From a virus: a stretch of 21,469 nucleotides of DNA. Location: the IMG/VR virus record IMGVR_UViG_3300048508_000330, positions 1-21,469 of that record, one strand, 5' to 3'. A program made the position numbers and the translations under genes. This document shows positions 1-20,600 of this stretch, one piece after another. Within the stretch, counting starts at the first letter, position 1. Each line of letters starts with the position of its first letter. A model generated the notes under the pieces. That model made no database searches. It had not been told where the DNA came from and saw only the letters and a list, made by a program, of their open reading frames with translations.

Positions 1-1129
1 CAACTTCAAAATTGGCAGTCATTCCACTACCAGAAACTCCAGCAGATCCGGTTCCTACTGTCATAGTAGCACCCATATTTGGGTGATTCTGACAATCGTA
101 TTTAAGTGCTTCTGATGGAGCGTTTGGAGAAATAATTAAATCAATAAATGATTCTGCAGTACCTTCTGTTCCAACTTTATTTACAATATAACTTTGAAAA
201 TCTAATGCTGCACCACCAGCAGTTAAAAATTGTAATGGGTGAGTTGATAAACTCGAATCTGAAATATCAAATCTATATGTATTTCCTTTTATTAAAGTTA
301 ATGCTTGCTGTGTAATACCATTAATCTGATATACATTATTTGGTGGAGGTGAACCAGGATTTGCTACAGAAGATAAAACATAAACAGCAGTAGCATTATT
401 TCTTATCGCAACTCCATTGTAGATGTTATCTGCATATAGAGATCCAGCATTAGATATCGAACCTGAAATTGTTTCTTCGCCAGTAATGGTAATATTAGCT
501 GTAGCGGATGATCCAGTGCCATTTTGGAGATTGACATTCTGATACTGTCCAGGAGCATACTGAGAACCATTACTTGTAATAGAACCATCAACAGCATCGA
601 CAGTAAAATCTACAGTAGCATTAGTTCCATTTCCACCAGCAAGGTTAACATTTGAAAATGATCCAGGATTGTAATTCTGTCCAGTATTTGTTGTAGTGCC
701 GGAATATGCCACTACTTCAATATCTAATGTTCCAAGATCACCAGATCCTCCAACAACAGAAATATTATTATAAGTTCCAAAATCGTAGTTTAATCCTGAA
801 CTTGTTATAGTTAAATTTGCATCTGCTAAAACTTTTTTTCTAAACGAAATATTCCTATAAGAAAAAATATCTTCGTTTGAGAAATCAATAATATTTTTTG
901 CTCCTCCTACAAGACCAAAAGTTCCACCAGAAGGTCTGTAAATACCAACTTGAGCATCATTCGTAAAAGATAATGACGGAGCAATTCTTGATCCATTCCC
1001 TAGTTTTAAATTGCCCGTAGCAAGATCACTGCCACCAGCAGTAACATTAAAAATTTGAGAACCAATTTCATTAATTTTGACCCTTTGTTTTTCAAAGGTA
1101 TCAGTTCTAGCGACATTAATTGCTGGCAT
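1..1129 (-). CDS. Tail-fibre-like virion protein with beta repeats and a cupredoxin-like domain (3' end outside window)
   Basis: The frame opens at ATG 1129 and stays open to the left edge, giving 376 residues with no stop. Residues 41-90 hold a segment typical of marine phage fibre proteins (motif SFTNDAQVGIYRPSGGT, 54-70). Residues 109-245 contain four tandem beta-type repeats with a G-x-x-Y core, the glycines lying at 112, 150, 188 and 229. A proline-rich linker (PPP, 261-263) leads into a domain at about 264-362 with H297, C346, H349 and M352 arranged like cupredoxin copper ligands. The start overlaps the end of the 68-residue gene by 14 bases, which suggests translational coupling; the purine-rich GAGAG upstream is only a weak ribosome site. 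The likely role is a fibre or decoration protein attached to the tail. The fibre assignment rests on domain style and on position next to baseplate genes; the exact T4 equivalent is unknown. Confidence 0.75.
   Translation of the reverse strand, partial: MPAINVARTDTFEKQRVKINEIGSQIFNVTAGGSDLATGNLKLGNGSRIAPSLSFTNDAQVGIYRPSGGTFGLVGGAKNIIDFSNEDIFSYRNISFRKKVLADANLTITSSGLNYDFGTYNNISVVGGSGDLGTLDIEVVAYSGTTTNTGQNYNPGSFSNVNLAGGNGTNATVDFTVDAVDGSITSNGSQYAPGQYQNVNLQNGTGSSATANITITGEETISGSISNAGSLYADNIYNGVAIRNNATAVYVLSSVANPGSPPPNNVYQINGITQQALTLIKGNTYRFDISDSSLSTHPLQFLTAGGAALDFQSYIVNKVGTEGTAESFIDLIISPNAPSEALKYDCQNHPNMGATMTVGTGSAGVSGSGMTANFEV
44..340 (-). other. Cupredoxin-like domain with complete type-1 copper ligand set
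   Basis: This marks about residues 264-362 of the fibre-like protein. It opens with NTYRFDISDSS, then THPLQF (H297), and about 49 residues later YDCQNHPNM (C346, H349, M352). Blue-copper proteins bind copper with His, Cys, His and Met. The His-to-Cys distance of 49 is close to the 47 of plastocyanin (H37 to C84), and C-x2-H-P-x-M matches the amicyanin ligand loop. The four residues are read directly; the fold and copper binding are inferred. Similar H...C-x2-H-x2-M segments occur, as far as I recall, in other marine phage structural proteins, usually without annotation. Confidence 0.55.
395..805 (-). repeat. Four tandem G-x-x-Y beta repeats in the fibre-like protein
   Basis: Protein-level repeats at residues 109-130, 147-168, 185-206 and 226-245. 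The units share a pattern of S/T-x-G-x-x-Y, then a glycine or aspartate turn, an aromatic, N-x-V/I and a GG/NG turn, for example SSGLNYDFGTY, NTGQNYNPGSF and SNGSQYAPGQY. The period is 38, 38 and 41 residues, and the last copy is degenerate. The second and third copies are the most alike. They look like beta-strand repeats of a fibre shaft. Confidence 0.7.
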
Positions 1130-1322
1130 TTTTTATTAACTCTCTAAGTAGGAATTTAATTTCAGAGACTTCATCCTTCAACATATTTATGTCGTCCAAC
1201 GCGGAATTCAGCTGTCGCTGCTTGCGTCTTGCTTGGATAGCAGAATCGCTGTGATTGACTATGGCACCTGAGGTCTCGTCTCTGACAAGACCATCATGCC
1301 CTTTGACTTTAATATAACCCAT
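1116..1322 (-). CDS. Small conserved phage protein with C-terminal coiled coil, function unknown
   Basis: A 68-residue protein starting at ATG 1322, 9 bases after the stop of the DUF4815-type gene, and ending 14 bases inside the fibre-like gene. The N-terminal third has the pattern IKVKGHDGLVRDETSGAIVN (residues 4-23), which I recall from small hypothetical proteins encoded among structural genes in T4-like marine phages. Residues 36-64 show regularly spaced hydrophobics (L38, L42, I45, L48, V52, I55, L58, L59, L62) separated by charged residues, as in a coiled coil. No signal peptide, membrane segment or catalytic motif is visible. The gene is GC-richer than its neighbours (31 of 60 bases in 1201-1260). 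No clear Shine-Dalgarno is present, so it is probably translated by coupling from the gene before it. A tail assembly or small structural role is inferred only from position. Confidence 0.8.
   Translation of the reverse strand: MGYIKVKGHDGLVRDETSGAIVNHSDSAIQARRKQRQLNSALDDINMLKDEVSEIKFLLRELIKNASN
1184..1191 (-). promoter_or_regulatory. Possible late promoter octamer CATAAATA inside the 68-residue gene
   Basis: On the minus strand the sequence reads CATAAATA, one base away from the T4 late consensus TATAAATA. It lies about 55 bases upstream of the fibre-like start at 1129, a spacing similar to those of the two better promoters in the window (36-37 bases) but longer. It also encodes part of the 68-residue protein, so it may be chance. 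Marine T4-like phages have been described with an N-ATAAATA late motif (from memory). Confidence 0.3.
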
Positions 1323-1331
1323 ACGCGGAAA

Positions 1332-4300
1332 TTAGAATGCAGCAACTGCACGAATATCTTGAATCTTCGGAACATATGCAGGATCATTTCCTTTCATAAC
1401 AATTTTAATTGCAAATGACGAGAACTCTGGGAGATCTGCTACGCTGTAAGTAATATCCTGATAAGATTCTTGCTTCTCAATTATACTCGAAATGCTATTT
1501 TCAGGAGTAGCAATTTCTAGAGAATCAGGTTGACCGGTGCCATTGAAGTATTCCCAATCAATATCCTCAAAGTTTTCATTGCTAGATGCTTTTTTGAATT
1601 TGTATAAAACTTCGATATCAGAAAGATCTCTGATATTTAAAGTTAGATGTATATCAATCGCAGTAGCTGGATTTGTAATAGAAACTTCTTTTGTAATATA
1701 CTTAGCAACAGAAGAACTATTCTTAGAAGTAAGCTCAGAAACAAATTCGGAACCATTGCTATATGCCATAGTGCCAACTTCCAAGAAGAAGGCTTCATCA
1801 GCAGGTTGGTTTGGATATGATACAATATCACCTACACGGAAAATATCAGAAACTTGATCAACTAACTGTGCTTTTCTAGCATATGCATCATTATCTCGAA
1901 TCCTTCCATTAAAATCACCGGCAATAGGTTGAGTGTCAGTTCTTAATGTCAATTCTTGTGTTCTATCATTCCAAATTACTGCTTTACCAGTAATAACATT
2001 ATCATAAGTTTCTGTTGGTGTAGCTGGATTTCTTGCCGTAATTGTAGAAGCATCAGGAATTTCCTGGAAGTTTTGAATTGGATTTGTATCAACGATTGCC
2101 AATGGAACTTCTACTCCATTTACAGTTTCAACCAACGTTGGTTGATTGCCTAAAGTAATTCTTTCTCCTTTCTGGAAGAACTGTGAAGTCTTAAGTTTTA
2201 CCCAAACTGTAGATCCAGAAACTTTTGCAATCTTACCAACTGCTTTAGAGTTATATCCCTCAATTGCTTGATCATTCTGAACAGTCACTCCAGTGATATT
2301 GGAAATATTAAATGAGTAGATGGGATAAAATTCAATGATTTGATCTTTTCTTCCATAGCGATCCTCTTGTCCATATGCTTTATCTATCCTATTAGTGGAT
2401 GTTTTTACACTAGAAGTTGATAGATCCACAACAGGAGAAAGGTGTGATACTGTAGAAGATAGTTGTAATTTATAGGATAGAGAATTGGTTAGATTATTTA
2501 ATATTTCATTAATATTTGAAGAAATGAATTTTTGATTAGCGAAGTAATGAGGTTCATTCAAGAAAGTTTTTTCGTAATCAGATTGATCATATGAATCATA
2601 ATTAATTTTGGAAGCATCTACTGCAATAACATTTGTGGTTTTTACCATAGATTCTATCTTAGTTCCCGTAAAAGATAGATATTGCATCTGTGGATATAAA
2701 GTTTCATATTTTCTGTTATAAGAAGAATAAACTTTATCTCCACCACCTATAATATTGCCAGAAGCAGCAATAGATGATGTAATGTCATACGTATCAACTC
2801 CGCTATTAGAAATCTGGAACAACGTGTTATTTAAAACATCTGATGTTATACCACCAGTTTCTAGTGCTGTTCTATAGAAAACATAAGAATCTCCAAGAGT
2901 TTCAAATCCGTGATCTCTGTGATTAACACGTACAATACTGTTATTGTTTCTAAACAACAACGAAGTTGCATTCGTGTTTGCTGTAGCACTGGTTTGGAAT
3001 GGATTCTTCTGTAGAAGTTCATATCCCAAATCTTCATTTGTAAGAATTAACTCTGCAGTTCTTGTAATATCAAACTCTGCTCTATACATTTTGAACTTGA
3101 TATCTTCATAATTATCTTCTGTCCAATTCTCAGTATTCTGAGATCTGTAAACAGAACCAAGTGAAGGTTGTGTAGTGATAACTGTGCTTGTAGCAATATC
3201 TGTTTCACCAAGTCGCGACACCCATAGTTCGTAATCAGTTGAATCTGTTTCAACAGCAAGAGCATATTCTGTATCATTCTGTAGATATACAGGATAATCA
3301 AAAGCAAAGTGTGTTGGTATTGTGGAGTCTGTGATCTCTTCAGAATCAATTGCTACACCCATTCTGACTGCTGGGGTGTTAATCTCTATCTCTGTCTCGA
3401 TAACACACCCTCCAGCGCCATTTCCGACGCCTCTGACGACTACTGATGGTGGTTCTGTATATCCAAAACCAGGTAGAGAAATTTCTGTGTTGTAAATTTT
3501 ACCACCAGAAACTTCTACTCGTGCAGTTGCAACCGATCCACCAGAAAGTTGTGGACTTTCAATTGTGATAATTGCGCTATCATAATTTAATCCGGGATTC
3601 AAGATTTTAACAGCAGAAACTTTTCCGCTATCTTTTGCAATAGTTAATACCGAATTTGTTCCTTGTGTGTTATTTGATAACGTTACTGATGGTATGATCA
3701 GATTTTCATTTTGATTAAATGAACGACCATTGTGGTTATCTAAAACCATAGTGTAAACTTGTTCGTTTGTTAGTAAGTATCTTCCTGAAGACGAAGGAAC
3801 TAGATCAACACCATTTTTGTCAATGATTTTAGAAAGAGGACCACTTGCGGCAGAAGTCGAACCAGTAATTGATTCTCCTTGAGTCAAGTAAACATTTCCG
3901 TTAGTGAAAATTTTAAGGAAAGTAAATGGAGATATAACTTTTTCTGTACCAGGAATAATATTTTTTCCTGGTTTATCAGAATCAACATTAGTAAGATAAA
4001 CTTTGATTGGAATTCTATTACTCTTATTACTAAAGAATAAATCAACACCAGTAGTAAATACTCCACCATCATAGTTTTCAACTTTGAAAGTTTGTGCTAA
4101 TGGATTAGGACGAACTGGATTATCAGTATTGCTATCTACAAACTGCACACCTTCATTTGCTTTAAAGAAAGATGGTTTTGTTGAAACAATTGTTCCTGGA
4201 TTTTCTGGCAAAATACCAGTTGCATAATACTTAACTTCTGCATAAGTATCTACAGTAGATTTGTCTTCGTCTGTGGAACTAGATGTAAATCTAAATGTTT

Positions 4301-7300
4301 TGATACCCGCTGCAATTTTTACTTCTTCTCCAGAAGAATCGTATGAAATAGTATCTACATCTCCCGTCCAAGTTGTATTTTCTTCCGGTGGAAGTCCAGC
4401 AGGAATAATAATAATACCACTAGCATTTCCATCATCATCTGTAGTTACTGGTCCATTAAAAGCAGACGGTGAATTACCAGCAACCCCAGTAAATCTGAGA
4501 TCTGGATTTACCCAACGACTAATGTTTCTACCTTCCAAAAAGACAGAAATAGTTGTATTTGGTTTTAGTCTTTTAACAACAAACTTAACTGGAATACTTC
4601 TAGCAAAAAATTGTAGAGCAGAAGATACAGCATTTCCTCTTACAGTTTTAGTTTGAACCCCTTTTGCAACATCATTATTTTTTGGACTGATGTTTGAAGA
4701 GCTAGCAGTAGATGCTAGTTTTACTTTTGACTGAGCATCCTGACTATTAACATTGCCAAGAGAATTAATTGAAGAGAATGATGGTGATGAACCAACCCAG
4801 TTAATTACAAAAGAATTATACAAACTAGAAAAACTTTCTTTTACATTTTCTTTGGATAAGAAAATCTTGTATAGATCAGTATTAGTATCTACAATTAGTG
4901 GTTCTTCTGTGGTATCATACCATTGATCGATACTTGGAGAGAGCACAGAATCTCCAACATACTGGAGAACAACAAATGGATTTGGATTAAGAGTCTTTGA
5001 TGCAAAACTATTACCGATAAATTCTAAACTAGAATATGGTAAAGTAACTACATTTCCAGATTTTTTATATCCAGAAACAACTCTTTGATCTTCTCTGGTA
5101 TTTACTTCCTTGAGTATAAAAGAATCTTCTTTCGATTGTGGGCGCAAGACTGCTTGCTGAGAATCAATGGAACACTGGTAATCTAAAGAAGTTAAATTGC
5201 CAGTTCTATGCGATTCAAAATTGTCTACCAAGAAACCAGATTTAAATCTGTCAAATCCAATTTCATCCTTAACTTGCATATTAAGAGCTTGTTGCTCAAG
5301 AACACTAAGAGTGGTATAATACTCAAGTCTCTCAATACGCTTCTCCAATTTACCAATATCGCGCATTGTATAACGGCGATTATCAACTGGAGTAATTCTT
5401 ACATCTTTACTATTTTGTGTAAACGCAGGAATGTATGCATAGAAAAGAGGAATTGCATCATCGATAAGATCTGGTTTGGATGGATTGAGTGAGGAATTTC
5501 CTTCCTTAACAATAAATTTACCATTCTTATTGAGGAATACACCATCAATTCTATCAAGATATTGTACTTGACTGAACGATAAAGTATATTCTAAATTGGT
5601 ATCAGATGCGGGACTTGATGCAATAATAGCACCAGAACCAGCAAATGGACCAACTGTTCTTGATAAAGACGCTGTATCCTGGAAACCAGCAATAGTTGCA
5701 GTGGTATCTACTTTAGGTCTGAAATCTAAAATATTTTTAAGATTGACAATACCATAAACAGATGAATTGAACGATGGAATTTCATCTTCCGTCACACCAG
5801 CTTCATGAATATAACTATCAACTGTACAGAAATCTCCAACAGAATGCTCGAAGTAATCGAAAGCAATTAGAAGTTGTCCAGTAGTCTGTTCATATCCTGG
5901 TTTTAGAACTAATCTAGAAACATCATAAACAGTGTCTCTTTGACCATCATCAAATGTAAATCTATCTGTGACATCAGAACCAGAAATTAACTCTCCAGCA
6001 GAGTTTGCTTGGGGTGGTTGAGTAGCACTACCTTCATAAACATATCTAAGTTTGTACGCATCAGAATATGAAAGTGTTTCAACAACTTCATTGTCATAAT
6101 TAACACCCCTAAATGGAATTACTCTATCACCACTAGAAGTAATTACAATTCTTCTATTTTCTACAGAAGTTTTTAATCTTGGTTTTGCATTTTCTACTTC
6201 TAATGTAGCAGTCAGTTTTAACTTTGGATAAGTTCCATTTGATGGAATTGTTCCAAAATATGTTGTTGGTAATTGTAAACTAATACTTCCAGCAATAAGT
6301 CCACTGCTAGTATCAGTAGATGAACTAATTTCTACTGCATCCTTATTAATATAAACAATATCTCCAATGTTTACAACAGGAGAATCGCCGGGATCTAGAA
6401 CAGTAATAATATAATTTTTTTCAGTAAAAGCAGCAAATCTTTGTGTGCCAAATGGCAACTGAGCAGCAAAGGTAATAATTCCACCACCAGTAGATGCAGT
6501 AGTTACAAAATCTCTGCGGAAGAAATACTTAATCTTAGTTTCCTCTGGTGTTGCAGCAATCTGCTTAATTTGATTGCTTCCAGTTGGATAAATTAAAGTT
6601 CCTTGGTTTGCACTATCTACTCTAGGACGCAAACGTACAATGCTAGTATTAACAACATCACCAGGAAGCATTGTATCCAAATAGATTCTGGTCTTAAATG
6701 CTCCTTGTTTTACTGTTGCATATTGGATAGTTGAACGTACTAAATTGTTATCTTCATCAGAGAACTGAATGATATCACCCTGCTGCAGTACATTACTAGC
6801 ATCTGCATTGAAACTGGTAGATTCAATAAAATTATATCCTTTAGATCCAAAGAAAGTAAAATCAGTAATAGATTTAATTTCTGCAAATTCTGAATCATCA
6901 ACTACAACATCTGCAGTAAATACGTTTTCTCCAGCAGATCCATACTTAGCAGAAACTGATTTTACATTTTGTGGAGTATATGTTGTTACTGCATTTCTAG
7001 TCAACACTGCTAAAATAACTGCACCTTGAGCGGGTGTTGCAGAACCATCAGGTTGTTTTACAGTTATTGACGGTGGTTGTGCATACTCTGTTGATAGAGC
7101 AGACTTATTTTTAACTTCTGCTCTATAGAAAGCACCGCTGTTTAATCTTGCTAGATCAACAACAGAGTTATCATACTCAACGCCATTAACTACAATATTT
7201 GAATTGTCTGCATATCCCAAACCAGGATTGGTTACAATAAAATGAGATACTGTATTATCTTTTGCAATTTTAACTACATTTCCACCTTCATCCTTAATAG

Positions 7301-9452
7301 ATTCTCCTGACTGAAATCTACCAGATAGAGTTTTTATGAACAAAAGTTTTCCTACGGAATATACTCCAGAAGGACTACCTTCAACAACTCCATATGCTCC
7401 AGATTTTAAACCAAATACATATTTACCAATTCCAAATGCTCCTGCTGCAGGAATGGTATCTAATAAAATTTTGGTAAAAAATTCTGGATCAAAATAAGAT
7501 AATCCAAATGTTGCATTGTAAGTTGTTGATCCATCAGATTGACGACCCTGTGATAAAATAATATCAGAGTCATTATTAAATCCTGATCCTGTTTTCTTAA
7601 GAGCAAAATTATTTGGTTTTGCTCTACCAATAACAGGTGTAATTGTTTCACTGTAATCTACAATAAAACCCAGTTCATTAGAGTCGGAAGATGCATCTGA
7701 ATTAGCAATAAATATTTTTCTTTGGTAATTTGAGTCTCCTAAATCATACTCAAGAAATAATAAATCTAGATCATCTTTCTTACCAAGAATTGTTAATTCT
7801 AGAAATTTAACGGAGTCATTTGCATTAATTAATGGTTTGTTTACTTTTGCAAAAGCAAGTCCTTTTACGGATGAAACCGAAGTTGCAGCACCAGAATCAT
7901 TTCTAGTTTTAATAAAATGAACTTCTCCAAGTAAAGTATCAAAGTTTGCATCTGTAATACTTGAAAGTGGTTGGGTAGTATTAGTTACTTCAACAACAAT
8001 AGTTTTTACAGCATCATCAGAACCAAAAACTTTTCCTCTTCTATCTGTGGTTTGTCTATGATCAGTAGGAAGTTCCGAGTCTCCTAATCCTACAGACCCA
8101 TCATTAAATGTGGAATATAAGTTAATGTATGGATATGCAGTAAGCTCTGCTCCTTCTTTGTTGAGGGGAACACTACCATATACATTAGTAATATTTAAAG
8201 TCGGCAAAGACTTAGTTTTTAATCTAATATTATCACTAGTAAGACTTGCTCTTGCCTTATTAATTTCTAGGTACTTAGTTTCTTTATTGACAATTTCATA
8301 TCCTTTGATGTATGCTTTGCCTGCGCTGACACTAGCTAACATCTTTCTTGATGCTTCTCCCTCAGTTAGACCATTGTAAAGTCCAAACGCATCTGCTTTA
8401 TAAAGTCCGCCGTTTCTATTTTTCTGTGCATATTCTCTGACATCAATATCAAAGTTGCCAACAACATAATCTCCACTCTCATCAAACGTTCTACGCGCAA
8501 GAGTTTGTTCAATTAAACTATAATTAGTTGGCGATACCTTTCTTTGTACTGCACCTCTTAACGTAGTGAGTAGTTGAATGAAATTTTTATCTGTAGTTTG
8601 ATTTAATTCAAACTTAACCAATTTCAATGAAATTTTTAATCTATGTGCTCCTGGAGCAGTGTAATTAGAAGACCCGATAGAATTATCATAAAGACTAGCA
8701 TCTTCCTCTGGAGTGATAATTTCTTCTTGAATTTTAAATCCTACTTTTGAAGAAGGACTGTCATAGTAATCATCGATTACTAGAATTTCTTTGTTGCATC
8801 TTACAAAATAACCATTTACAAAATAGATACCTTCTTCTACCTCCACAGCAGAAGCAAATCCCATTGCCGGACTTTCAATTGAAGTTATGTCTCCAGTATC
8901 TGGATTTGTAAGTTGAATACTGGTGGGAAGTACACTACCGTCAGTTCCAACAACTAATAATGGAGTATTAATACCATCAATAACTTCTAAAGTTTCTCCT
9001 TGACGAAATTTTGATTCGTTGTTAGAATTGCCACTATTTAAATAATTTACATAAACAGTGTCAGCAGTAGTTTCTGTCGCTAACTTTGTTTCTAGAACAG
9101 TAGAAATTACTCCTGAATTTAATCCACGTAATTGTCTACCAATTAGTTGACTGATATCGTATTTTTTATATACAATATCACCATCTTCTTCAACAGCAAC
9201 TTCTGACACAGAAGATAACTTAACGTAATCTAATTTTGTGTTAAGTCCGACTTCTCCAGGTACAACCAAGTCTCCTTGTTTGAAAGCATACTTACCAAAA
9301 CTTTCAACCTGATTCTGGAGAATAGATTGTATTTGTGTTAATTCTCTGCTCTGGATAGAGTACCCAGGACGGAATAGAATTTTATAAAAATTCTTACTTG
9401 CGTCGAAGTCCTCGTAATAAGGATTTACATTAAGGTTTGTCTTCTGTGGCAT
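1332..9452 (-). CDS. Giant DUF4815-type virion structural protein (baseplate/tail fibre connector region)
   Basis: A 2706-residue protein from ATG 9452, with GGCGG six bases upstream as ribosome site and a late promoter 37 bases upstream. The N-terminus (FRPGYSIQSREL, residues 27-38, followed by a Q-rich helix) is the hallmark start of DUF4815, a domain of T4-like marine phage structural proteins. A second conserved block lies at residues 1360-1412: RYTMRDIG, a short amphipathic helix KLEKRIERLEYY, then FKSGFLVDNF. A third is RPNPLAQTF with GGVFTTGVDLFF near residues 1780-1810. The C-terminus (FAIKIVMKGN and VPKIQDIRA, last 27 residues) is also typical of this family. Between them are long beta-rich stretches, including G-x-x-Y repeats. 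No enzymatic motif was found. By order it takes the place of T4 genes 9/10, so a role in the outer baseplate or fibre attachment is likely but inferred. The protein is far longer than the DUF4815 domain alone. Confidence 0.88.
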   Translation of the reverse strand: MPQKTNLNVNPYYEDFDASKNFYKILFRPGYSIQSRELTQIQSILQNQVESFGKYAFKQGDLVVPGEVGLNTKLDYVKLSSVSEVAVEEDGDIVYKKYDISQLIGRQLRGLNSGVISTVLETKLATETTADTVYVNYLNSGNSNNESKFRQGETLEVIDGINTPLLVVGTDGSVLPTSIQLTNPDTGDITSIESPAMGFASAVEVEEGIYFVNGYFVRCNKEILVIDDYYDSPSSKVGFKIQEEIITPEEDASLYDNSIGSSNYTAPGAHRLKISLKLVKFELNQTTDKNFIQLLTTLRGAVQRKVSPTNYSLIEQTLARRTFDESGDYVVGNFDIDVREYAQKNRNGGLYKADAFGLYNGLTEGEASRKMLASVSAGKAYIKGYEIVNKETKYLEINKARASLTSDNIRLKTKSLPTLNITNVYGSVPLNKEGAELTAYPYINLYSTFNDGSVGLGDSELPTDHRQTTDRRGKVFGSDDAVKTIVVEVTNTTQPLSSITDANFDTLLGEVHFIKTRNDSGAATSVSSVKGLAFAKVNKPLINANDSVKFLELTILGKKDDLDLLFLEYDLGDSNYQRKIFIANSDASSDSNELGFIVDYSETITPVIGRAKPNNFALKKTGSGFNNDSDIILSQGRQSDGSTTYNATFGLSYFDPEFFTKILLDTIPAAGAFGIGKYVFGLKSGAYGVVEGSPSGVYSVGKLLFIKTLSGRFQSGESIKDEGGNVVKIAKDNTVSHFIVTNPGLGYADNSNIVVNGVEYDNSVVDLARLNSGAFYRAEVKNKSALSTEYAQPPSITVKQPDGSATPAQGAVILAVLTRNAVTTYTPQNVKSVSAKYGSAGENVFTADVVVDDSEFAEIKSITDFTFFGSKGYNFIESTSFNADASNVLQQGDIIQFSDEDNNLVRSTIQYATVKQGAFKTRIYLDTMLPGDVVNTSIVRLRPRVDSANQGTLIYPTGSNQIKQIAATPEETKIKYFFRRDFVTTASTGGGIITFAAQLPFGTQRFAAFTEKNYIITVLDPGDSPVVNIGDIVYINKDAVEISSSTDTSSGLIAGSISLQLPTTYFGTIPSNGTYPKLKLTATLEVENAKPRLKTSVENRRIVITSSGDRVIPFRGVNYDNEVVETLSYSDAYKLRYVYEGSATQPPQANSAGELISGSDVTDRFTFDDGQRDTVYDVSRLVLKPGYEQTTGQLLIAFDYFEHSVGDFCTVDSYIHEAGVTEDEIPSFNSSVYGIVNLKNILDFRPKVDTTATIAGFQDTASLSRTVGPFAGSGAIIASSPASDTNLEYTLSFSQVQYLDRIDGVFLNKNGKFIVKEGNSSLNPSKPDLIDDAIPLFYAYIPAFTQNSKDVRITPVDNRRYTMRDIGKLEKRIERLEYYTTLSVLEQQALNMQVKDEIGFDRFKSGFLVDNFESHRTGNLTSLDYQCSIDSQQAVLRPQSKEDSFILKEVNTREDQRVVSGYKKSGNVVTLPYSSLEFIGNSFASKTLNPNPFVVLQYVGDSVLSPSIDQWYDTTEEPLIVDTNTDLYKIFLSKENVKESFSSLYNSFVINWVGSSPSFSSINSLGNVNSQDAQSKVKLASTASSSNISPKNNDVAKGVQTKTVRGNAVSSALQFFARSIPVKFVVKRLKPNTTISVFLEGRNISRWVNPDLRFTGVAGNSPSAFNGPVTTDDDGNASGIIIIPAGLPPEENTTWTGDVDTISYDSSGEEVKIAAGIKTFRFTSSSTDEDKSTVDTYAEVKYYATGILPENPGTIVSTKPSFFKANEGVQFVDSNTDNPVRPNPLAQTFKVENYDGGVFTTGVDLFFSNKSNRIPIKVYLTNVDSDKPGKNIIPGTEKVISPFTFLKIFTNGNVYLTQGESITGSTSAASGPLSKIIDKNGVDLVPSSSGRYLLTNEQVYTMVLDNHNGRSFNQNENLIIPSVTLSNNTQGTNSVLTIAKDSGKVSAVKILNPGLNYDSAIITIESPQLSGGSVATARVEVSGGKIYNTEISLPGFGYTEPPSVVVRGVGNGAGGCVIETEIEINTPAVRMGVAIDSEEITDSTIPTHFAFDYPVYLQNDTEYALAVETDSTDYELWVSRLGETDIATSTVITTQPSLGSVYRSQNTENWTEDNYEDIKFKMYRAEFDITRTAELILTNEDLGYELLQKNPFQTSATANTNATSLLFRNNNSIVRVNHRDHGFETLGDSYVFYRTALETGGITSDVLNNTLFQISNSGVDTYDITSSIAASGNIIGGGDKVYSSYNRKYETLYPQMQYLSFTGTKIESMVKTTNVIAVDASKINYDSYDQSDYEKTFLNEPHYFANQKFISSNINEILNNLTNSLSYKLQLSSTVSHLSPVVDLSTSSVKTSTNRIDKAYGQEDRYGRKDQIIEFYPIYSFNISNITGVTVQNDQAIEGYNSKAVGKIAKVSGSTVWVKLKTSQFFQKGERITLGNQPTLVETVNGVEVPLAIVDTNPIQNFQEIPDASTITARNPATPTETYDNVITGKAVIWNDRTQELTLRTDTQPIAGDFNGRIRDNDAYARKAQLVDQVSDIFRVGDIVSYPNQPADEAFFLEVGTMAYSNGSEFVSELTSKNSSSVAKYITKEVSITNPATAIDIHLTLNIRDLSDIEVLYKFKKASSNENFEDIDWEYFNGTGQPDSLEIATPENSISSIIEKQESYQDITYSVADLPEFSSFAIKIVMKGNDPAYVPKIQDIRAVAAF
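5216..5375 (-). other. Conserved RYTMRDIG / helix / FKSGFLVDNF block of the DUF4815-type protein
   Basis: Residues about 1360-1412 of the giant protein. The run RYTMRDIG is followed by charged heptads (LEKRIERLEYY), a further helix ending LNMQVKDEIGFD, and RFKSGFLVDNF. In my recollection this is the best conserved internal block of the family. The helical character contrasts with the beta-rich flanks and could form an oligomerisation core. Confidence 0.6.
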
Positions 9453-9551: not shown

Positions 9552-11363
9552 TCAGAATTCGATGACTAGTTTGATATCTTCAATCTGGTCAGGAGCACGA
9601 GTGATCAAACGACGGTTCTCTTGGTAGATAACATCGCCAGAGTTATTCTTAATTTCTGCGGCTGCTAAACCAGCAGTAAATGATACACCCAGAAGTGTGC
9701 TTGCATATGTTGTATCAACATTACCTGCAGCAGCGGAAAGAACACCAGAAATAGCATTAGAACCATTACTTTCAAATGCTTGGACTACACCTTGATCAAC
9801 GTGTGCATCAACAGTTTGAATATACTTAAGAACACCTGCAGTAGAAGAACCACTGTCTAGAACCCAAGAAACAACAGTTCCTTTTGCAGTGCCACCAGTT
9901 ACAGTCTGAGAAATTGTTTCATCAGGAATAAAATCTGCAGTTGCTCCAGTAATCTTAACTGCTTTTAATCCAGATAGTGTATCTTGAGTAGCAAAGGTGC
10001 TTGTGCCTGCGCGAACGGGATCCTTGATAATACCAATACGACGGAAGTCGTTATCAACAGGGAAGTCTCCAGAACCTTCTGAATAGGTAAGGCGAATGTT
10101 AGTCATTACACGCTTGCCATTCAACTCTAGTTCATGATCGAAACCATGACCACCTTCAGGAGGCATCACAACCTCAATAGCACCCGTTGCGTCTGCAGCG
10201 GTAGCAACTGCTGTGGTTAAACCAGCATCAGAGAAGAGGTTGCCGTTTCCTAGAAGGACATTGGCATAGGTGTAATCCTGACCTCTTGCTTGGACACTAG
10301 CAGATGTAATAGTGCCAGAACCATCGGTAGCAAACTCAATTACTCCTCCAGTTCCATCACCCTTGATGCTAGTAAATAGTGTTTGTGAAGCAGGTAGGTT
10401 AACACCACCATCTTCAATAAGAGCGACATCAATTGCTCCATCAACAGCAGCACCAGTAACAGCAGTACGGGTATTGTTGGCAGGAAGAACAATCGGCATG
10501 AAGTCCGAAGATAAGAATCTTAGAACATCATCAGTTGGCATGGTGTACATGTACTTCCAGATGTATCCTGCACCAGATGTCTCAGTATAAAGACCGGTGC
10601 CAGAAGCATAGTTGCCACCACTAGTTTTTGGTTCTTCAGTGGCATTTTGACCGGATGCATTAGCAACGTTTTCTCCGTTGTAGAGGCACTTAAAGACTTC
10701 GTAATCAGAATTCATTACGTAGAACTTAGCATCGGAAATGCTTGTTTGGTTTGTAGCAGTCTGCTTACCAACTTGTCCACCACCACCAGGGGTAGCAGAA
10801 TAGTCTGGTTTCCACATGTCAAACTTAGGGTTGGCAACTTGATCCCAGTTATAACGACGGATAACTGTTCTCGCGAATGCATCAGTAATACGCTTGGCAG
10901 CAATGATTTCGTCGTATACGTTGAGTTTCTCTCTCTGGTTGTCCAAAGGAAGAGGGGGAATATCCTCTGTTGCGTAGCGATAAACACCAGATTGCGCTGT
11001 TGCAGCAGTATCAGATGAACCACCGTCTGCAGTTTCTTTTAGACTTGAACCAATGGGGGGAACAGAGTTTGTTCCGTTGCTGCCAAAAACGTCGGTTAAT
11101 AAAAGGGCACTATCATAAACTTCGGCAACTGTTGCACGGAAAGCAGTAGAACCATACGTTCCAACATACACTTCGTTTCCAACAGTAAAGTTAGTTGAAG
11201 ATTTTGAATAAACTTCGATATACGCTTTCCATGGTTGGGGTCTTCCAACAAAGAAATACATTCTGGTGCGCTCGGCACTGGTTTCACTTGGACCTTCTGT
11301 CAAGGATTCCAAGAATTGTTTAGCGTTAAAAATTCTAAACTTATCTGAGATAATAGCAGCCAT
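9552..11363 (-). CDS. 8: T4 gp8-like baseplate wedge subunit
   Basis: A 603-residue protein from ATG 11363 to TGA 9552. The N-terminus (MAAIISDKFRIFNAKQFLESL) and motifs YFFVGRPQPW (36-45), FDMWKPDY (181-188), YEVFKCLYNG (221-230) and GYIWKYMYTMPTDD (266-279) match the proteins annotated as gp8 in T4-like cyanophages, as I recognise them. T4 gp8 itself is 334 residues, so the marine form is much longer; the extra part is beta-rich and glycine-rich and includes a G-x-x-Y-like segment (ARGQDYTYANV). gp8 joins the wedge in the baseplate. The gene has its own pair of late-promoter octamers and its own terminator, so it can be made as a single-gene late transcript. Ribosome site is weak (GGAA about 10 bases upstream). 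Base composition is GC-richer than both giant neighbours (26/60 and 29/60 in two sampled lines). The gp8 family call is fairly sure; subunit details are by analogy. Confidence 0.8.
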   Translation of the reverse strand: MAAIISDKFRIFNAKQFLESLTEGPSETSAERTRMYFFVGRPQPWKAYIEVYSKSSTNFTVGNEVYVGTYGSTAFRATVAEVYDSALLLTDVFGSNGTNSVPPIGSSLKETADGGSSDTAATAQSGVYRYATEDIPPLPLDNQREKLNVYDEIIAAKRITDAFARTVIRRYNWDQVANPKFDMWKPDYSATPGGGGQVGKQTATNQTSISDAKFYVMNSDYEVFKCLYNGENVANASGQNATEEPKTSGGNYASGTGLYTETSGAGYIWKYMYTMPTDDVLRFLSSDFMPIVLPANNTRTAVTGAAVDGAIDVALIEDGGVNLPASQTLFTSIKGDGTGGVIEFATDGSGTITSASVQARGQDYTYANVLLGNGNLFSDAGLTTAVATAADATGAIEVVMPPEGGHGFDHELELNGKRVMTNIRLTYSEGSGDFPVDNDFRRIGIIKDPVRAGTSTFATQDTLSGLKAVKITGATADFIPDETISQTVTGGTAKGTVVSWVLDSGSSTAGVLKYIQTVDAHVDQGVVQAFESNGSNAISGVLSAAAGNVDTTYASTLLGVSFTAGLAAAEIKNNSGDVIYQENRRLITRAPDQIEDIKLVIEF

Positions 11364-17600: not shown

Positions 17601-20600
17601 ACTTAGGTCAAAATATGTTCCTGTCAATGAAGAATGTGAAGTATCAAATACGTACTTGTAAAACTCTTGTATGTTAATATTTGGATTCGGTGTAAATGAT
17701 ACGTTATCTTCAGAAAATTCAAACTTATACTCTACATCACTAACAGAACTAATTGAAACTAGTCTCTCTGGGGAACTTGCATCAAAGAATGTTGTACTAA
17801 TTGTTAACTCTTGCGCTACTCTTTTTTCAATAGAATACCCAAATACAATTGTCGCTTCTTGAGTTGAAGCATCATATGATTTGATGTATCCACTACCATT
17901 GTTATTGGTGATTTGATAATCTGCAGTAAAATTATAATTTGGTTTGTATAAAGATACCTCTGCTTCATTGTAATGATCTACTGCAGTTGTATTATCTTGT
18001 GCTCTAGAAACAGAAAGAATATTTCCATTGATCGCTGTAATTTGAACAATTTCAGAACCAATCGACAAGTAATCACCAACTGCAAATCCGTTTGTAGTTT
18101 TTAATGGAATACTACTAGAAGATAATGAAACACCAGCATGATCAACATATACAGTAAGTCTAGAAGAACTTAGTGATCCTCCAGATCTTGCAAGTTGATC
18201 ATCATCAACACCCAAATAATCACCTCTTTTATATCCACTACCACCGGTTTCAATTTGAATACTGTTAACAACTCCTGCACTGGAAACAGTAATTGATGCT
18301 GTAGCACCAGTTCCAGAACCTCCAGTAAGAGGAACTCCAGTATATGAACCTGATGTATAATCAGCTCCACCATTTAATATGGTAAATCTGCCAACACCGT
18401 TATACTCAATATTTGATTCGTTTTTTGGAGAATTGAAAATAACTGTTTGATACAGTCTTTTTCTTAAAAAGTAATTTTTAGTCTTAGATGCATCATCAGG
18501 AAAAATGCTAATAGAAACTTCATCGCCAATTGCTAAACCGTGATTCTCATCTGTCTCAATTAAACCAACACTTTGATTGACTTCAAATGGTTCTAAGTTA
18601 TCGCTAAGAGATACTAGAGTTACAATTTTAGATCCAGAAGTATTGAATAAATTGTCAGACTGTAAAAAATAATCTTCGTCAACTATCCAAGTTCCTGTTA
18701 AAACTTTAATTTTTAATGTGTTTTGTCTGCTAGTTCCTTCTAAAATTTCGGCAGTAGCAATAGGAGGATTAATACCATCAGTTAAACTTAATGTAGCACC
18801 TTTAGTGTAATTACTATCTTGATCAATAGTAAGAATGAAAGTTTTAATATCTGCAGAGAAAGTTCCGGTATTGTTAAATGTTCCAATAACATTTTTAAGA
18901 ACAATAATGTTATCATCTTTTACTGTTCCTACAATAGAGCCAGATGCTCCACTCGCCGGTTGCCTCAATACATCGTCAACAAACAAATATGCATTTTGAA
19001 TAGTAGTTAGTTTTACTACCTTATCTTCTCTAGATTGCAAATAACTTACAGTTTCACCTTTAACAGAAGAAACCAATGCTTCGACATTTTTTCCTTCAGT
19101 ACCAAAATTATCAAAGAATAATTTTGAGTTTATCGAAAAATTGCTAGATGATCTGTCAGTAGTAATACTATCTACAGTTCCTGAAGTAATTGCACCAATC
19201 TGTGCAATTAAACCTTCTCCATTACCTTGCATACCAGGACGATAAAACCTTTTGGAATTCTTAGGAACATCATTTTGATTGATGTCGGAATTATAATTGC
19301 TATTTACTGGTAGTGAATAATATTTGTCTCCTAAAACATATGGAAACTGTGGTACTTGATTGCTATCAATGGTCAGGAAATATGCATAAGTTCCTTCTGG
19401 AAAATCTGGAGTAATACAGAATCTTCCATTATTTTCATCCAAAGAACCACTCTTGTGATTATATTTGTAGTCATTGACAAAAGATCCCAATGCATAGTTT
19501 CTTTCAGCAGGTCCATTCTGACGATCTGATCTGATAGAATAACTAGAAGTCATTCTTTCAATGGATGATTGTGAATCTAAAGGATCTGAATGTCCAAATG
19601 GTCCGTAAATTGGGTTGCCATCATAAGCAAAACCTATGATAGGTGAATGAGTCTTAATTGTGGGTTCTGTATCTGCGCTGTTTAAGTTATCGTTAAGTGC
19701 GATTCTTAATGATTTTGGATTTGCAACCTGTCCATATCCATATTCTAGAACGTTATTATAATTTGCAAAAGAATATCCAAATTGTGTATCTAATTCTTCT
19801 TTTACCTTTTCAAATCTATTTTTAACCCATTCTTTCAGTAAAGGTGTCGCAGTTGCATCTTCGCCAACTGCAACAATTTGAACTTCAATATTTTTTTGTG
19901 TATAAAGAGTTCCACCAAAAACTTTATTCAGTTCAGTAATTTTTCCATCTGTATCAACAACAGAGGTATACTCAGCAAACCTACCTCTACCAACTTTGTC
20001 TCTTATTACTACAGTTGGTGGAGATGAATAGAATTTGCCAGGATCATCAATTACAATACTAGTTACTTCACCTCCTGTTATAACAGCAGTTGCTTTAGCA
20101 CCTCTTCCTGAAGTAATTTCGACAGTTGGTGTTCTTAAGAAAGTGTCATTAGTATCAACTACGATACTATCGATAACATTGCCTGTTAAAAATGATCTTG
20201 CTTTACTTGGAAGACCATCAATTAATACAAAAGGTGGATTTACATAATTTCTGCCTCTTGTATTAACAAGAATTTGTTCTAGTTTACCAAAACGAATACT
20301 CTCTTCATCTTTATAACCATAAACAGGAACACCATTGAGAAGAATACCAACATCTCTATTTGGTGTTCTATAGATTTCAGTGGTTGTTGCAGGAACTTTT
20401 CTTATGATTCTAAGAAGTTTCTGATCCAACATGGTTTCAGAAACTGTGCTACCATCAAAAATATTATATGATGGATAACTAGAACTTGTAATATAGTAAT
20501 ATTGATCATCTGCAAAAATAGCAGAGACATCTGTAGACACACCTGTTAGTGCATTTTGCACAGATGTATTAGTCGATGCACTAACGGATGCACCAGTTCC

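Follow-up and report, generated by a model that had tools for sequence, protein, structure and literature searches.

Metal sites on phage appendages have been proposed before, in the form of iron bound at the HxH motifs of T4 gp37 and of marine tail fibres (PMC11705849). This is the nearest published idea to the one developed here, and iron is the only metal discussed in the literature that we found; our search, in which few subscription papers were covered, returned no report of a cupredoxin domain, or of any other domain that binds copper, in the tails or virions of phages. Both the cupredoxin fold and its ligand set are well known; their recurrent use as a module of marine virion proteins appears, in the literature searched, to be undescribed.

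Gene Context of the Domain

The stretch analysed here (“the window”, 21.5 kb in its entirety) is a virus contig from a marine, cyanobacteria-infecting virus. The gene of interest is a minus-strand ORF (1129..2) that is open at the window edge and gives the first 376 residues of a larger protein; the full-length protein, 1613 aa, is found in contig L019, where residues 1–376 are identical to the window protein. PHROG places this N-terminal part (2..1129, minus strand) in phrog_6005 (virion structural), with additional matches to baseplate-wedge families, and the ORF encodes the start of a virion structural protein of a T4-like cyanophage.

Directly upstream lies the gene of a 68-aa virion structural protein (1116..1322, minus strand; phrog_473 by PHROG, T4-GC 112 in the annotations of relatives), a position that it occupies in most relatives, followed upstream by genes found by domain and PHROG searches to code for a 2706-aa DUF4815 structural protein (1332..9452, minus strand) and a T4 gp8-like baseplate wedge subunit (9552..11363, minus strand). 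The complete order is a 3232-aa virion structural protein with baseplate-wedge matches, the gp8-like gene, DUF4815, the 68-aa gene, and the gene with the cupredoxin-like domain. The last three recur in the same order in ACG-2014j, S-H9-1, S-H9-2, Syn1, S-RIM32, and S-MbCM7, all of them Kyanoviridae with Synechococcus or Prochlorococcus hosts, and most of these records label the protein as virion structural. As a side observation, the 3232-aa protein includes a YHYH domain (PF14240, E 8.9e-30; window positions 19350–19655, minus strand), a further domain of the same virion module.

Given the gp8-like gene, we assign the locus to the baseplate module. The window protein had been called tail-fibre-like in a sequence-only reading of this DNA; its membership of phrog_6005 with baseplate-wedge matches, together with the gp8-containing module, makes “baseplate-associated virion structural protein” the better label. 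The older name is only partly right here; the domain does occur in annotated tail fibres elsewhere.

Four Candidate Ligands and a Predicted Cupredoxin Fold

The same reading had pointed out a complete blue-copper ligand set in this protein, and the residues are indeed where it had put them: H297 (239..241, minus strand; motif THPLQF), C346 (92..94), H349 (83..85), and M352 (74..76), the last three also on the minus strand, with the spacing H-x48-C-x2-H-x2-M, a His-to-Cys gap of 49, and the loop YDCQNHPNM. At the sequence level, this is the type-1 set of His, Cys, His, and Met, with Cys, His, and Met on one C-terminal loop. The likeness to amicyanin holds as well, its loop in PDB 1aac being CTPHPFM (C-x2-H-P-x-M), of which the window loop has the spacing and the Pro. 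The coordinates proposed for the domain (44–340) fell on the right site and spanned residues 264–362 only; from the AlphaFold2 model, Foldseek, and the relatives, we draw it at residues 246–362 (44..394, minus strand). There are two His and one Cys in the 376 residues, all three in the ligand set. One has to keep in mind that, in the window DNA, C-x2-H-x2-M by itself is no commoner than chance would have it (one observed against 0.93 expected); the same pattern with a His 40–60 residues upstream arose in 2 of 30,000 shuffles of the window protein. The motif in a single sequence is not decisive, and the conclusive evidence is its conservation in relatives.

With a 32-sequence alignment of the domain as input, AlphaFold2 returned a confident beta-sandwich of nine strands (pLDDT 92.9, pTM 0.85). 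In model numbering, H297 is residue 52, just before the predicted strand E54–58, and C346 is residue 101, at the end of the predicted strand E95–101, while H349 and M352 sit in the next loop; this placement of ligands on strands and loop is the plastocyanin arrangement. A Foldseek search of the PDB listed cupredoxins, namely rusticyanins and copper nitrite reductases, at all of ranks 1 to 11, with a rusticyanin first (E 3e-4) and plastocyanins and azurin below these eleven; TM-scores to solved cupredoxins were moderate (0.5–0.6), and the strand order of the model agrees with that of cupredoxins. The fold proposed earlier is, thus, borne out by prediction and structural search. Among predicted viral proteins (BFVD), the domain was found at TM 0.7–0.8 in structural and tail-fibre proteins. 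The same search brought up more distant proteins of the same fold, A0A6G8R690 and A0A1D7SL13, which are annotated as baseplate wedge tail-fibre connectors of other cyanophages (compare phrog_677), as well as three proteins named “beta-sandwich protein” (A0A481Z7Q7, A0A481Z6J5, and A0A481YWX9; query TM 0.62–0.68) from giant viruses with Pithovirus or Marseillevirus names.

Sequence comparison gives a fainter signal. The window domain reached no model in Pfam or NCBIfam, amicyanin TIGR02657 and plastocyanin TIGR02656 included, and the window sequence alone retrieved chance matches only from the PDB. Eight of 32 window-type phage copies match PF00127 (Copper-bind) at E up to 1, the best at 0.0016. 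Bacterial copies bridge the phage domain to known cupredoxins: a Woeseiaceae lipoprotein-like protein that ends in the domain, L285, scores 24.8 bits on PF00127, where the cut-off is 21.2, with most of the model covered, and its domain is 50% identical to the S-B68 phage copy. L285 is also the relative closest to the plastocyanin model TIGR02656, at 22.1 bits for a cut-off of 87.85. When the family was aligned by hhalign with amicyanin and two plastocyanins, 78 columns were matched and each of the four ligands fell on its counterpart (P 1.5e-4); of the three yardstick sequences, only amicyanin was checked letter by letter, against PDB 1aac. A family profile run against the PDB reached plastocyanins only at E about 0.2, and the search with the broader profile A4 was weaker than that with A1.

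Ligands Are Almost Always Kept or Lost Together in Homologues

The profile used to search 273 loci had its four ligand columns masked, which gave sequences with intact ligands no advantage in being found. A ligand-free motif, GNTYRFDxxD, fetched 54 non-redundant copies, two of which are split second copies whose C-terminal half lies further on. Among the remaining single-piece copies, all four ligands are present in 51/52 (one of these, L207, has a C-x4-H loop and was scored by eye) and none in 1/52: in L170, from the same contig as L056, they are replaced by Glu, Ser, Asn, and Ile. An alignment of 25 divergent phage and bacterial copies (A4) tells the same story, as its only invariant columns are Y40, H52, Y99, C101, H104, M107, and G108, that is, the four ligands (H52, C101, H104, and M107), two Tyr, and one Gly. 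In more than 90% of the copies, Pro follows the first His. Most loops have the form C-x2-H-x2-M and some are longer, as among known cupredoxins.

A second copy of the domain, split by an insert, is present in the full-length protein (H809, C926, H933, and M936 in L019), and there the ligands have a more eventful history. Of 22 aligned second copies, 11 have both the Cys and the loop His and 11 have neither, without exception. Counted by hand from the listings over 27 clusters, the upstream His and the Cys are both present in 11, both absent in 11, and present as His alone in 5, a Cys without the upstream His being found in none (Fisher p 3.5e-4, relatedness ignored); on the tree, the Cys was lost at least four times, too few for a significant relatedness-corrected test. 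The well-supported sister pair L035 (H-C-H-M) and L046 (I-S-Y-M) has three ligands changed together. The ligands of homologues, thus, covary, a check that the sequence-only reading had proposed: Cys and loop His come and go as a pair, and no copy with the Cys lacks the upstream His. Independent variation was considered and rejected, its sole apparent case, a Cys without His in L188, being a misalignment with the His a few residues further on in GSDHRMTF. The eleven second copies without Cys and loop His retain their surrounding sequence, and the ligands are, therefore, not needed merely for the fold.

The two copies can also be read together. In L056, the first copy (4968–5327) has no ligand at all and the second (6774–7355) has the full set; at least one full site is found in 27/27 non-redundant long relatives, a count in which L226 and the His of L159 were judged by eye and for which we claim no significance. 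The model of the second copy (pLDDT 88.8) matches mostly cupredoxins and laccases in the PDB, with a best hit (E 6.5e-3, TM 0.27) that is not significant, so that its assignment as a cupredoxin rests on sequence and ligands. In several second copies, the axial Met is replaced by Glu, with His, Cys, and His kept: L029 (6486–7085), L042 (6453–7046), L048 (6450–7043), L241 (7309–7923), L188 (7414–8004), and L001 (Cys at residue 1010). As Met gives way to Glu in these, the metal may differ between copies of the domain and may not be copper in all of them.

Distribution in Phages and Bacteria

With a single domain query, at least 600 matching stretches were found in IMG/VR, and the domain is present in 84 sequenced phage records, nearly all marine. 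It is shared with phages of the non-photosynthetic Pelagibacter and Methylophilales. In P-HM1 (L013, 2001–2204; loop CQTHGGGM), S-CAM22, and P-SSM7, the proteins that contain it are annotated as baseplate wedge gp7. Bacterial and archaeal assemblies yielded no locus when scanned with the window-type alignment and one motif; the scan was repeated with a canonical phage copy and gave 22. The upstream His and C-x2-H-x2-M are kept in 22/22 of these copies, although some of the bacterial loci were fetched by a Cys and loop-His motif, so that only the upstream His and the Met count there as independent evidence. Several copies come from long contigs, and the proteins that contain them either begin like lipoproteins or are as long as adhesins (SAR86, Woeseiaceae, and Bacteroidetes); others, such as L292 from a Prochlorococcus single-cell assembly, are probably phage-derived. 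We also note the domain in L285, L291, and L286 (at their C-terminal ends) and in L290, which are uncharacterised lipoprotein-like and adhesin-like proteins of marine bacteria (Woeseiaceae and SAR86).

A Putative Metal Site on the Baseplate

We propose that residues 246–362 are a cupredoxin-type beta-sandwich in a baseplate-associated virion protein, in which H297, C346, H349, and M352 form a mononuclear metal site like that of type-1 copper proteins, and we put the probability of this at about 0.7. The cupredoxin reading of the window domain is well supported, and the best overall reading is that of a real, uncharacterised cupredoxin family serving as a metal-binding module on marine virions. 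As the ligands are dispensable for the fold and the Cys and loop His are nonetheless lost together, a joint function is the best explanation, and in a cupredoxin fold the known one is metal binding. From there, we infer the occupancy of the site, the identity of the metal, its exposure, and its structural or contact role. The site would be retained because it binds a metal at the loop end of the sandwich. The ligand set makes copper the first candidate. Phage proteins, however, are assembled in a cytoplasm that contains very little free copper, which makes zinc a real alternative; the metal would most likely be copper acquired when the virion leaves the host or later, or zinc taken up in the cytoplasm during protein assembly. 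In either case, it would fasten the Cys-His-Met loop to the upstream strand, and the appendage would have a rigid, exposed end; such a metal-pinned loop, for stability or surface contact, is the role we favour.

The domain could instead be a cupredoxin by descent that is metal-free on the virion, its conserved residues being there to pack the fold, to form hydrogen bonds, or to link chains through the Cys. Assembly in a copper-poor compartment and the preserved surroundings of the ligand-less second copies would fit such a history, which we nevertheless consider unlikely: those very copies show that the residues are unnecessary for packing, all four were lost at once in L056, the Cys and loop His always go together in the second copy, and a disulfide would not call for two His and a Met. 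Slightly less likely again is a metal-baited contact in which appendage copper (or iron, or zinc) engages a metal-uptake or other receptor of the host, in the manner that the Ferrojan Horse idea proposes for iron in tail fibres. It would suit a domain that many marine phages carry in proteins of the tail fibre and baseplate, and iron-carrying HxH fibre sites have been discussed as receptor bait (PMC11705849), but the domain recurs across phages of unrelated hosts, and bacteria have it in lipoprotein-like and adhesin-like proteins that play no part in phage entry.

It is far less probable that the domain is a redox or electron-transfer blue-copper domain active during the infection of a photosynthetic host, even if the ligand set is of type 1 and cyanophages separately carry petE plastocyanin genes (PMC3037559). 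It is embedded in large structural proteins, it is shared with phages of non-photosynthetic hosts, and the Pro after its first His is not what plastocyanin and amicyanin have there; the first two points make electron transfer unlikely, and stabilisation or surface contact would be the likelier role. That the four residues fell by chance into a generic beta-sandwich is hardly credible: the bare motif is about as frequent in the window DNA as chance predicts, but conservation and linked loss across phage and bacterial homologues refute this reading.

A shared domain whose ligands are nearly always kept or lost as a set suggests that these phages carry metal-binding sites of which our literature search found no description. 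If the sites hold metal, each phage particle would carry several protein-bound copper (or zinc) ions, with consequences for the stability of virions, for their contact with hosts, and for trace-metal chemistry in the ocean; the co-existence of ligand-bearing and ligand-less copies in one protein family offers a natural experiment. More tentatively, and on balance short of what we would assert, marine tailed phages, and cyanophages above all, might commonly bear metal-loaded (copper) cupredoxin domains on their baseplates and fibres, virions then being uncounted strong copper ligands in seawater, and the split His/Cys/His/Glu copy might be a different metal site in the same chain.

Comparison with Known Systems

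The annotations of the protein's own families (phrog_6005, phrog_32294, and phrog_30742), which speak of virion structural, baseplate wedge, and tail fibre proteins, name neither a metal site nor a cupredoxin domain. In HxH sites of the T4 gp37 type, octahedral iron is held by paired His of a trimeric fibre; such a motif is absent from the window protein, whose 376 residues contain just H297 and H349, and from the 1613-aa L019 protein. Nitrosocyanin and Met-to-Glu variants of azurin resemble the second copies with His, His, Cys, and Glu, although nitrosocyanin draws its Glu from elsewhere in the chain. The best structural matches, rusticyanin and the N-terminal cupredoxin domain of Hyphomicrobium nitrite reductase, are 15–17% identical at TM 0.5–0.6 and are redox proteins, whereas the domain here is part of a virion. 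With the plastocyanins and amicyanins of PF00127, it has in common the fold, the H..C-x2-H-x2-M order, and the positions of strands and loop; it differs from them in having Pro instead of Asn after the first His, and in sitting inside a 1613-aa virion protein, away from the context of a secreted electron carrier.
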